A stretch of 64,000 nucleotides of DNA, taken from positions 1-64,000 of the forward strand of contig JAJFGZ010000059.1 of NCBI GenBank assembly GCA_021775855.1, given 5' to 3'. The position numbers and the translations under genes were made by a program. Source of the stretch: Hyphomicrobiales bacterium (lineage in GTDB: Bacteria; Pseudomonadota; Alphaproteobacteria; Rhizobiales; NORP267). Under the pieces are notes generated by a model, which made no database searches, was not told the DNA's origin, and worked only from the letters and a program-made list of their open reading frames with translations. Below, in pieces: positions 22,332 through 59,545 of this stretch (positions are counted from its first letter, which is position 1; each line of letters starts with the position of its first letter).

Positions 22332-22424
22332 GAGGTCCCCCGTTGACTGCCCCGGATTCTAACCCATGCCTGGATTGCTGCCTAGATTGTCATGCTGCGA
22401 AAATTCCTGTAGCAAGAGGCATCT

Positions 22425-22512
22425 CGTTGGGGTGCCCGAAATGATCCGGGCTGAGAGGTGCGTCGTGTCAACCCATTGAACCTGATCCGGATTGTACCGG
22501 CGGAGGAAACTG
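22425..22512 (+). ncRNA. TPP riboswitch (THI element)
   Basis: GGGGTGCCC...GGGCTGAGAGG...CAACCCATTGAACCTGATCCGGATTGTACCGGCGGAGGAA immediately upstream of thiM. Confidence 0.93.
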
Positions 22513-22514
22513 AG

Positions 22515-23300
22515 ATGGATGGCCCTACAAAAGAAACAATAATTCAGGACGTGTTAGGCGAGCAGGGGGACGTCATTGCCCGGCTGCGCGAACTAAATCC
22601 CAAGGTCCATTGTGTCACCAATCTCGCTGCCAATAATTTTACGGCCAATGTTATGCTGGCGCTTGGCGCGGTCCCCAGCCTGACATCGTCGCCGGAAGAA
22701 ATACCGGATTTTGTTGCCCGCGCTGACGCGTTGCTGATCAATCTCGGGACACTCGATTCTGAGCGCAAGGATGCCATTAAAACCGGCGTTGAAGTAGCCA
22801 CTGAATATGGCAAGCCCTGGGTGCTGGATGCAACTTACGCCAATGCGTCGACTGTCAGGCTTGAATTTGCCGCTTATCTGCTCGGGCTGCGGCCTCAGGT
22901 TATCAGGGCCAACCAGGTGGAAATCGCTTCGCTTTGTCAGGCACTTGAAGCTGACAATGCAGCCCGCGCACTCGCATTGGCGACCGGGAGCTGCGTCGCC
23001 GCGACGGGCGAAACCGATATTGTGACTGACGGTGTTCTGGATTTCCATGTCGATGGAGGCGACGCCATCATGACCCAGGTGACGGCTGTTGGGTGCGTGA
23101 CCAGCGCGATCATAACCGCCATGCTGACGGTCGAACCAGACCCCGTCAAAGCCGCGCTTGTAGGCCTGATCATTGCAAGCAGCGCGGGCGAGATAGCGGC
23201 CAAGCGTGCCCGTGGTCCCGGATCGTTTCAGGTCGAATTTCTGGACGCCCTTTATGCATTGGATGACACCACACTTCGCCAAAGGAAACGCGTGTCGTGA
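22515..23300 (+). CDS. thiM: Hydroxyethylthiazole kinase
   Basis: NPKVHCVTNLAANNFTANVMLALGAVPSLTSSPEEIPDF. Downstream of the TPP riboswitch. Confidence 0.93.
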   Translation: MDGPTKETIIQDVLGEQGDVIARLRELNPKVHCVTNLAANNFTANVMLALGAVPSLTSSPEEIPDFVARADALLINLGTLDSERKDAIKTGVEVATEYGKPWVLDATYANASTVRLEFAAYLLGLRPQVIRANQVEIASLCQALEADNAARALALATGSCVAATGETDIVTDGVLDFHVDGGDAIMTQVTAVGCVTSAIITAMLTVEPDPVKAALVGLIIASSAGEIAAKRARGPGSFQVEFLDALYALDDTTLRQRKRVS

Positions 23301-49320: not shown

Positions 49321-51378
49321 TCAGAAATCCTTGCAGAGCCGTAATGCGTCGTAGATCGCGGCGTGGATGTTGCGGGAGGATATGGCGTCACCGATCCGGT
49401 ACAACCGGAAATTACCGTCCTCATTTCCAACCAGTTCTTGTGGCTGTCCGTTGATCAGGGCGCGGTAATCTACGGCGCCTTTATTGATCGACGTATCTTT
49501 CAGTTCAAAATACAGATCGTCCAGGGGCAGGGTACCGTGTTCGACCACGATCTGGTCGGCCAGACGGTTCGAATTTTTAACATCGCCATAATCGCTCGAT
49601 AGCTTGGCCACCAATTTATTGCCGTCTTGCGCGACCGATCGGACCCGGGTGTTGATGGTGATCCGGGTGCCGCATTCCTGGAAGGCGCGGGCATAGTGGA
49701 CATGGTTCAGGCCGCCGATTTCCGGAGCAAAGAAGCGCTCTGGCGTGACGACTTCAAGATCGGACCCGGCGCGGGCGATCATCTCCGCCGTTTGCATACC
49801 GGAATGAGCCCCGTTATCGTCATAGAGGATAACCGTCTCGCCGGGTTTGATGTCGCCGGACAGAATGTCCCAGCTGCTCACAACATGCTCGTTGCCGTTC
49901 TTGAGGATATCCGTATTAGGCAAACCGCCCGTAGCGATGACGACGATGTCGGGACCCGTTCCCTGAACATCGGTGGCTTCGGCAAAGACGTTGTAGCGGA
50001 AGTCGACGCCGAGCCTTGCGCATTCCGCGAGCCGCCAGTCGATAATGCCCGCCATGGCCGACCGCCGGGGGAGCCGCGTGATCAGGTTGATCTGGCCGCC
50101 CGCCCGGTCGCCGGCTTCAAACACGATCACCTCGTGGCCGCGCTCGGCTGAGACTCTTGCGGCTTCCAGCCCGCCTGGGCCAGCTCCGATGATCGTCACC
50201 CGTTTCCGGGGACCGGTTGTCTTTTCAATAAATTGCGGCATTGAGGCCTCGCGCCCCGTGGCCGCGTTATGGATGCAGGCCGTGTCGCGGCCCTCGTAAA
50301 TGCGGTCGAGGCAGTAGGTCGCACCAACGCACGGCCGGATTTCTGTTTCACGGCCCGCCCGGGTTTTGCTGGCGATATGAGGATCGGCGATATGCGCCCG
50401 GGTCATCCCGACCATATCCAGCTTGCCGGACGCAATCGCATGGCGCGCGGTTGCGATATCATCGATCTTGGCGGCATGGAATACCGGGAACTTGGTCTCG
50501 GTGCGGATTGCACCCGAAAAATCCAGATGGGGCGCAGATGCCATGCCCTGTACGGGGATTACTCCCGTCAACGCAGCGTCAGTGTCGATATGGCCACGGA
50601 TCACGTTGAGAAAGTCAATTTGCCCAGTGGCGGTCAGTCGCCGTGCAATTTCCAGTCCGGTTTCAGTGTCGAAGCCTTCATCCCAGGCTTCATCAAGCGC
50701 CAGACGGATACCGACAATGAAATCGGGGCCAACGCGGTCACGCACGGCATTGAGAACGCGGAAGGTGAAGCGCAACCGGTTGTCGAGGCTGCCGCCAAAT
50801 TCGTCGTCGCGCCGGTTGGTGGCGGGAGACCAGAATCCGTCCAACAGATGACCATAGGCTTCTATTTCGAGGCCGTCGAGACCGGCAGCCTTCATGCGTT
50901 CAGCAGCGCAAGCATAGTCCGATATAATACGCTCGATATCCCAATCCTCGATCTCCTTCGGGAAGGCCCGGTGGGCGGGTTCGCGTATCGGCGAGGGGGC
51001 AACCACAGGGAGCCAGTCACCATAGTTCCAACCGGTACGCCGTCCGAGATGCGTGATCTGGATCATCACGGCGGCACCATGCTCGTGACACTGGTCAGTC
51101 AGGTCGCGGAGCGCGGGCACGATCTCATCACGGTAAGCGTGAAGGTTACCGAACGAGGGCGGTGAATCCTGGGAAACAATCGCGGATCCGGCGGTCATGG
51201 TCAGGGCAATGCCGCCCTTCGCTTTCTCTACATGATAAAGCCGATATCGTTCCCCCGGCAGGCCGTCCTCGGAATAATTTGGTTCGTGGGCCGTAGACAT
51301 CAGGCGGTTTTTAAGCGTCAGATGCTTTAGCTGGTAAGGCTGGAATAGCGGATCGGTCTCAGCGGAATATGTAGACAT
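49321..51378 (-). CDS. OYE-type flavin oxidoreductase (N-methylproline demethylase/TMADH-like)
   Basis: FQPYQLKHLTLKNRLMSTAHEPNYSEDGLP, AAGLDGLEIEAYGHLLDGFWSPATNRRDDEFGGSLDNRLRF; C-terminal FAD domain VTIIGAGPGGLEAARVSAERGHEVIVFE. Confidence 0.88.
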   Translation of the reverse strand: MSTYSAETDPLFQPYQLKHLTLKNRLMSTAHEPNYSEDGLPGERYRLYHVEKAKGGIALTMTAGSAIVSQDSPPSFGNLHAYRDEIVPALRDLTDQCHEHGAAVMIQITHLGRRTGWNYGDWLPVVAPSPIREPAHRAFPKEIEDWDIERIISDYACAAERMKAAGLDGLEIEAYGHLLDGFWSPATNRRDDEFGGSLDNRLRFTFRVLNAVRDRVGPDFIVGIRLALDEAWDEGFDTETGLEIARRLTATGQIDFLNVIRGHIDTDAALTGVIPVQGMASAPHLDFSGAIRTETKFPVFHAAKIDDIATARHAIASGKLDMVGMTRAHIADPHIASKTRAGRETEIRPCVGATYCLDRIYEGRDTACIHNAATGREASMPQFIEKTTGPRKRVTIIGAGPGGLEAARVSAERGHEVIVFEAGDRAGGQINLITRLPRRSAMAGIIDWRLAECARLGVDFRYNVFAEATDVQGTGPDIVVIATGGLPNTDILKNGNEHVVSSWDILSGDIKPGETVILYDDNGAHSGMQTAEMIARAGSDLEVVTPERFFAPEIGGLNHVHYARAFQECGTRITINTRVRSVAQDGNKLVAKLSSDYGDVKNSNRLADQIVVEHGTLPLDDLYFELKDTSINKGAVDYRALINGQPQELVGNEDGNFRLYRIGDAISSRNIHAAIYDALRLCKDF

Positions 51379-57925: not shown

Positions 57926-57955
57926 AAAAGAGCCCGGAGCGCGAAGCCCCGGGCC
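57926..57955 (-). terminator. Rho-independent terminator of small-peptide cassette 1
   Basis: Minus strand GCCCGGGGCTTCGCGCTCCGGGC followed by TCTTTTCGTTT. Confidence 0.8.
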
Positions 57956-57972: not shown

Positions 57973-58149
57973 TTAAAGATTGTTTGTCAGTTGGGCGATT
58001 GGCAGCCGGCCATCAATCGATCCACCTGTCAGGGAGTTGACGAGCAGGTCGTTGGTGCCGGGAGACACCCGCCCCAATTCAGTGCTGGCAAAGGCTGCCG
58101 GCACAGAGAGTGCCAGCAGCGTTACCGTTGTGAGAAGGAGGTTTCTCAT
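57973..58149 (-). CDS. Small exported peptide B1 (58 aa)
   Basis: MRNLLLTTVTLLALSVPAAFASTELGRVSPGTNDLLVNSLTGGSIDGRLPIAQLTNNL. Sec signal and gap-free paralogue of B2. Confidence 0.8.
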   Translation of the reverse strand: MRNLLLTTVTLLALSVPAAFASTELGRVSPGTNDLLVNSLTGGSIDGRLPIAQLTNNL

Positions 58150-58191: not shown

Positions 58192-58368
58192 CTAGAAGTT
58201 GTGGCCGTCGTTGGTCAGGAATGCATCACCAGCGGCAGGAACCGTTGACGTCATCTGATCAGTGATACCAAGGTCTTCGTTGACCTGATATCCGGTTTCG
58301 GCCTGTGCCGTGACGATGCCAGTTCCAAGTGCTGCGATAGCGGCGACTGCCATAAGGGTCTTTTTCAT
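58192..58368 (-). CDS. Small exported peptide A1 (58 aa); absent from the ORF track
   Basis: MKKTLMAVAAIAALGTGIVTAQAETGYQVNEDLGITDQMTSTVPAAGDAFLTNDGHNF. SD AAGGAGAA upstream; paralogue of A2. Confidence 0.82.
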   Translation of the reverse strand: MKKTLMAVAAIAALGTGIVTAQAETGYQVNEDLGITDQMTSTVPAAGDAFLTNDGHNF

Positions 58369-58384
58369 TTTAAATTCTCCTTAT

Positions 58385-58448
58385 GCCTCTGTTTGGCGAG
58401 GCGTTTTAAAAATTCGCGTCCGGTTGGTTCGCGTCTGGGTTAGAGATA
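58385..58448 (-). promoter_or_regulatory. Conserved leader of cassette 1 (hairpin plus 33-nt block)
   Basis: Hairpin arms GCCTC 58385-58389 / GAGGC 58398-58402. GCGTCCGGTTGGTTCGCGTCTGGGTTAGAGATA at 58416-58448 matches cassette 2 at 32/33. Confidence 0.7.
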
Positions 58449-58604
58449 GGGAAACGGAAATCAGAAAAAAGTACCTGTACTGATCATGTGAAACGACGTG
58501 AAAAATGCGTGATTTGGCGCGATGAATTGCGAGTTTCAGAGCACAAAAAAAGTGATCAATTGACGGTTTGTCGTGGGTTTCCGCCGACCCGCTGGTAACG
58601 CAGG

Positions 58605-58621
58605 ATCACTTTATTCGTGAT
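58605..58621. promoter_or_regulatory. Palindrome ATCAC-N7-GTGAT upstream of cassette 1
   Basis: ATCACTTTATTCGTGAT; the same architecture recurs at 59501-59517. Confidence 0.5.
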
Positions 58622-58810
58622 CACACCGTGTAGGCGATTTGGAAGGCGACCAGCGCAGCCGGAAAACGGCAGGATTTCTGATATCAGAAATGCGTGAGAT
58701 CGGTTTTCAAGATCCATGCTCGCGAATTTGTTCCAGAAAATTCGCGGCATTTGATGTCGACCCGAGATCCCAGCAGGGTCCGACAAGATGTACAAATGTT
58801 TTGGGAGCCT

Positions 58811-58848
58811 AAATAAGGAAAGGGCCCGGGATATAAATCCCGGACCCT
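58811..58848 (-). terminator. Rho-independent terminator of small-peptide cassette 2
   Basis: Minus strand GGGTCCGGGATTTATATCCCGGGCCC followed by TTTCCTTATTT. Confidence 0.8.
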
Positions 58849-58863
58849 AGGTACGACGCTCTT

Positions 58864-59040
58864 CTAGAGAGTGTGCGTCAACCGGAGAATTAGCGGACAA
58901 CCTGCGATCGGGGCGCCAGTCTGGGAGTTGACTAGGACGCGGTTAGTGATCGGGGTTGCCTGCCCTGTTTCGGTTCCGGCGAATGCTGCTGGCGCGGAGA
59001 GCGCCAGCAGGGTTACCAGAGTGAGGACTAGACTTTTCAT
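58864..59040 (-). CDS. Small exported peptide B2 (58 aa); absent from the ORF track
   Basis: MKSLVLTLVTLLALSAPAAFAGTETGQATPITNRVLVNSQTGAPIAGCPLILRLTHTL. SD GGAGGACATATT; aligns gap-free with B1. Confidence 0.8.
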   Translation of the reverse strand: MKSLVLTLVTLLALSAPAAFAGTETGQATPITNRVLVNSQTGAPIAGCPLILRLTHTL

Positions 59041-59080: not shown

Positions 59081-59260
59081 CTAGTAGTTGTGGCCGTCGT
59101 TGGTCAGGAGGTTGTCGGGGTTGCCAGCGGAAGCAGTGGTTTCCAGCTGGGTCTTGAATGCAACGCTTTCGTTGGCGTTGTAACCGGTCTCGGCTTGTGC
59201 CGCGATGATGCCGGTGCCAAGAGCTGCAATAGCGGCGATTGCTGTGAGGGTCTTTTTCAT
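59081..59260 (-). CDS. Small exported peptide A2 (59 aa)
   Basis: MKKTLTAIAAIAALGTGIIAAQAETGYNANESVAFKTQLETTASAGNPDNLLTNDGHNY. SD AAAAGGAGAG upstream; paralogue of A1. Confidence 0.82.
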   Translation of the reverse strand: MKKTLTAIAAIAALGTGIIAAQAETGYNANESVAFKTQLETTASAGNPDNLLTNDGHNY

Positions 59261-59278
59261 TTTCTTCTCTCCTTTTGC

Positions 59279-59343
59279 GCCTCGGAAGGGTGAGGCGATC
59301 TCCAAATTTCGCGTCCGGTTGGTCCGCGTCTGGGTTAGAGATA
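59279..59343 (-). promoter_or_regulatory. Conserved leader of cassette 2 (hairpin plus 33-nt block)
   Basis: Hairpin arms GCCTC 59279-59283 / GAGGC 59292-59296. Conserved block 59311-59343. Confidence 0.7.
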
Positions 59344-59500
59344 GTCGGGAGAAACAAGGAAAAAAGAGGCTATCCTGTGCATGTGAGACAGTGTGAAAAC
59401 GACGTGATCGGGCGCGATGAAAAGCGAGTTTCAGGGCCCTGAAAAAGTGATCATTGGACGGATTGAAGAGCTATTCCGCCGGTTTTCCACTCACTGGGGA

Positions 59501-59517
59501 ATCACAATTTGCGTGAT
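59501..59517. promoter_or_regulatory. Palindrome ATCAC-N7-GTGAT upstream of cassette 2
   Basis: ATCACAATTTGCGTGAT, same spacer length and nearly the same distance to gene A as in cassette 1. Confidence 0.5.
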
Positions 59518-59545
59518 GACGCGCTGTTGGCGATCAGGTTCGCAA

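Follow-up and report, generated by a model that had tools for sequence, protein, structure and literature searches.

Two tandem cassettes of exported-peptide genes

In the window, i.e. the whole stretch of 64,000 nucleotides analysed here, the minus strand carries two tandem cassettes, flanked on one side by a YcjX-like gene (DUF463) and on the other by an enoyl-CoA hydratase gene, each cassette in the order leader, A, B and terminator, A2/B2 forming the upstream cassette and A1/B1 the downstream one. The products of A and B (57-59 aa) bear signal-peptide-like N-termini and their predicted export is implied in the following description. For MetA, encoded nearby, the best plasmid matches come from alphaproteobacteria, chiefly rhizobia, in keeping with an alphaproteobacterial host.

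59261..59517, minus strand: leader 2, with the anatomy of leader 1, for cassette 2, from alignments with leader 1 and the leaders of G001 and G002
59081..59260, minus strand: gene A2, 59-aa exported peptide
58864..59040, minus strand: gene B2, 58-aa exported peptide
58821..58848, minus strand: terminator-like hairpin 3' of B2
58369..58621, minus strand: leader 1, an intergenic region with the putative promoter, operator and 5' UTR for cassette 1, at 71% identity to leader 2 and aligning with the leaders of G001 and G002
58192..58368, minus strand: gene A1, 58-aa exported peptide
57973..58149, minus strand: gene B1, 58-aa exported peptide
57931..57955, minus strand: terminator-like hairpin 3' of B1

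Both peptides are orphans restricted to the genus. Across 398 genomes of the order, A returned just weak partial matches, in or near the signal peptide, and no homologue was found in the genome contigs, viral contigs or plasmids searched; for B, the order gave weak or partial matches only and the plasmids none. Assignment of A to Pfam SepZ or to NCBIfam AimP was rejected, both matches being below cut-off and the latter spanning the signal peptide alone. Elsewhere in the genome, a third B-like gene (L043, G000:C74:37851-38027, plus strand) has neither an A gene nor the cassette leader; it is divergent from a TetR-type gene, and repeated TGTACCGATCAGTACA-like sites are found upstream of it.

Regarding the leaders, the resemblance described in the earlier note was recovered, namely 179/253 identical positions (71%) between 58369-58621 and 59261-59517, a 33-nt block at 32/33 identity (58416-58448 against 59311-59343) and spaced GTGA motifs with matching 10/11/43-bp spacing (58488, 58498, 58509 and 58552 in leader 1; 59383, 59393, 59404 and 59447 in leader 2). 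Permuting the columns of the leader 1/leader 2 alignment yields a 32/33 run in 0.4% of cases. With 7-8 GTGA/TCAC tetramers in 257 nt, where the 64-kb window averages 1.6, both leaders are the densest places for these motifs. One other place, at about 51.0 kb (50950-51260), also reaches 7 in 257 nt.

Conserved islands of the leader

The cassette is present in three genomes of the genus, each time adjoining ycjX, and the leader alignment comprises four leaders from three species, in two close pairs. As the earlier note had proposed, the homologous upstream regions were aligned, and the conserved columns of the four leaders cluster in sharp islands: a distal TCAC-N7-GTGA, then TCGC, TCAC, TCAC and TCAC in steps of 10, 11 and 10 bp, CTTTT, CTATCT and CAGACGCGRACCRA. 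These islands and the associated predictions are located as follows.

58602..58622, no strand assigned: distal element TCAC-N7-GTGA (58606-58620), copy 1, its spacing common to the four leaders
59498..59518, no strand assigned: distal element TCAC-N7-GTGA (59502-59516), copy 2
58487..58522, minus strand: putative operator, TCGC-TCAC-TCAC-TCAC direct-repeat array, copy 1
59382..59417, minus strand: direct-repeat array, copy 2
58467..58472, minus strand: putative -35, ACTTTT, of which CTTTT is invariant in the four leaders
58444..58449, minus strand: putative -10, CTATCT, invariant in the four leaders
58416..58448, minus strand: 33-nt block, with the putative -10 and the predicted transcript start
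59311..59343, minus strand: 33-nt block, copy 2
58415..58433, minus strand: predicted RNA hairpin 1, at the transcript 5' end
59310..59328, minus strand: hairpin 1, copy 2
58385..58402, minus strand: predicted RNA hairpin 2, immediately 5' of the Shine-Dalgarno site
59278..59297, minus strand: hairpin 2, copy 2

In the three genomes, the full block motif occurs only at the cassettes, and array matches occur only in cassette leaders, the controls giving 0. When one mismatch was allowed in the 12-base pattern, the search for a wider array regulon gave extra matches at about the chance level, some 14 per genome being expected by arithmetic.

CTATCT is a plausible -10 with the invariant CTTTT upstream, the putative -35 being placed by its spacing of 16-17 bp to the -10 and departing from the consensus hexamer; a sigma-70 scan predicted no promoter there. 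The block would hold both the -10 and the initial transcript, since the predicted transcript begins near CAGACGCG. The designation of a long leader in the earlier note was too generous, as only about 70 nt would be transcribed, and the promoter and upstream operator would take up most of the 253 bp. The predicted 5' UTR of A1 lacks any start codon preceding the gene, and no such codon is conserved across the four leaders.

Within this predicted 5' UTR, the minimum-energy fold of the four leaders gives the two hairpins, at like positions, their energy being reached by 16/1000 column shuffles for hairpin 1 and 0/1000 for hairpin 2, in a test whose hand-made, structure-aware alignment favours such a result. 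Hairpin 2 exhibits one compensatory change (U-A/C-G), and among the leaders taken singly, only that of A1 has an unusual folding energy.

The probable control region and its candidate regulators

Taken together, the conserved stretch is probably the shared promoter, the upstream regulator-binding array and the short, structured mRNA start of a tandemly copied exported-peptide operon. It would exert the transcriptional control of the two genes A and B, copied as a unit with an upstream gene tail, and would be ordered, from far to near, as the distal TCAC/GTGA cluster, the four-unit array, a weak promoter and the 5' UTR of about 70 nt. The array, with TCGC/TCAC every 10-11 bp, would be bound by an oligomerising activator or repressor; the weak promoter would consist of CTTTT, 16-17 bp and CTATCT; and the 5' UTR would start inside the 33-nt block and fold into two hairpins, one at the 5' end and the other just ahead of a strong Shine-Dalgarno site, which probably protect the mRNA or govern its translation. 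As such, the leader is an ordinary kind of control region, attached to an operon of orphan exported peptides; it is conserved far more tightly than the product and is copied along with it. The array, the block and the two hairpins offer a concrete and small target for finding the regulator of these lineage-specific peptides, and hence the role of the peptides.

A more specific proposal, on the unlikely side, is a dedicated circuit of the genus, in which a regulator would target only these orphan cassettes via the four-unit array, with a new 5' UTR element acting alongside. Were it true, the peptide sequence would drift while dosage control stays fixed and is copied with each duplicate.

As for the protein binding the array, an OmpR-type response regulator with a winged helix is the most likely candidate. 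In all four leaders, direct repeats spaced about 10-11 bp precede the putative promoter, the arrangement of OmpR-family operators, and each genome has 8-9 Trans_reg_C genes as candidates. The nearest published motif found is the TGA-N8-TGA operator of CenR, an OmpR-family regulator of Rhodobacter sphaeroides with mostly envelope or exported proteins as targets and tolQ, in the tol operon, as a conserved one (PMC9275681). Like the array, CenR operators are direct repeats about one helical turn apart, and TGA-N8-TGA, read on the plus strand, spans GTGA motifs two and three of every array. In contrast to CenR, the array comprises three to four consecutive units and stands at a single operon type, and tolQ in this genus is without such a conserved repeat: upstream of tolQ, no conserved TGA-N8-TGA was found in G000 or G001, and the upstream sequence at the G002 locus, for which no usable tolQ start was obtained, shows no conserved repeat either. 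With regard to autoregulation, the array is absent upstream of the OmpR-type (Trans_reg_C) genes examined in the three genomes, a set leaving out L048. CenR is therefore not established as the regulator, the array being confined to the cassettes and absent before both the Trans_reg_C genes examined and tolQ. ChvI, from a response-regulator system that serves the cell envelope in alphaproteobacteria, differs in motif, with TTGC-N3-GCAA in Caulobacter and GCC-N8-GCC in Sinorhizobium (PMC9731502); neither is present in the conserved leader columns of the alignment inspected by eye, and a ChvI regulon was rejected.

A dimeric regulator, of the CRP/FNR type or another, could instead use the GTGA motifs as its half-sites, as the inverted pair TCAC-N7-GTGA of the distal element, present in 4/4 leaders, would suggest. 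The CRP site is GTGA-N6-TCAC, however, so that the inverted pair has the opposite order, and the proximal sites recur in a single orientation every 10-11 bp, which makes a regulator of this type rather improbable next to the OmpR-type binder.

Control could also be mainly post-transcriptional, the block acting as a cis-regulatory 5' UTR element bound by a protein or a small RNA. Besides the presence of both hairpins in the four leaders, the 5' arm of the block is invariant while its 3' arm varies by insertion and still pairs; yet the array and the -10-like hexamer lie upstream of any predicted transcript, the sequences are few, and an Rfam search of the window returned no leader match at the gathering score. 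An RNA element as the main function of the block is thus doubtful, to much the same degree as a dimeric regulator. The only Rfam match in the window was a TPP riboswitch (22418-22526, plus strand; RF00059, 67.6 bits). The pairing of a 5'-end hairpin and a strong Shine-Dalgarno site is, by analogy, reminiscent of the ompA-type 5' UTR, whose stem-loop at the 5' terminus is stabilising (Emory et al. 1992, cited in PMC7509114). A short 5' UTR, a predicted hairpin near its 5' end, a strong Shine-Dalgarno site and an exported product, here a predicted one, would be common to both; the sequences are unrelated, and the predicted hairpins here are short.

Duplication and constraint

The likeness of leader 1 and leader 2 is first of all a matter of common descent, because the copied unit took in part of the upstream gene and G001 has a second copy of its own.

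58629..58699, minus strand: enoyl-CoA hydratase gene-tail remnant, copied with the cassette (alignment score 38, shuffle maximum 33)

This remnant lies just beyond leader 1 and its score was reached by 0/2000 shuffles, marking the boundary of a duplication that took the cassette and the tail of the upstream enoyl-CoA hydratase gene as one unit. The cassette duplicates repeatedly in the genus: in G001 (L009, L022, L044; C23, C6, C10), a second, nearly identical cassette is found at another place and likewise carries an upstream gene tail, that of a thioesterase gene. G001 also has two near-identical tandem A genes, with contigs breaking at the copies.

Tandem copying could then suffice to explain the likeness, with the leader under no special constraint, and both gene tails speak for it. 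Against this, divergence is very uneven. The block is closer between copies than the peptides are, as the earlier note held (97%, against 64% nt for mature A and 47% for the A-B spacer); the array stands at 75%, and similarity is as low as 51% in the stretch separating array from block and 48% past 58622, the array-to-block stretch and the A-B spacer indicating the local neutral level. The same elements are moreover kept in G001 and G002: between the window and these two species, the block is 78-83% and the array 74-79% identical, versus 37-40% at fourfold sites of the neighbouring genes. For G001 the figures are 81-83% (block), 79% (array) and 52-60% (A peptides, aa), with fourfold sites at 40% in ycjX and 38% in the hydratase gene, so that neutral sequence is near saturation. 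Uneven divergence and cross-species conservation already largely refute plain duplication, a very unlikely account of the leaders, and on these alignments the array and the block are under selective conservation beyond duplication. The claim that regulation is more constrained than the peptides accordingly stands for the conserved islands, through the cross-species comparison, and falls for the whole 240 bp; the A1/A2 pair alone, being tandem duplicates, was insufficient to establish it.

Membership of the block in a small coding gene that runs antisense to the leader was rejected as extremely improbable, for the plus-strand frames crossing it in both window copies are not continued in G001, whose own plus-strand frame there is unrelated in sequence.

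Of note, A2/B2 are nearer to the peptides of relatives (60/61% aa to G001) than A1/B1 (52/49% aa), and copy 1 therefore seems to be the faster-evolving one.
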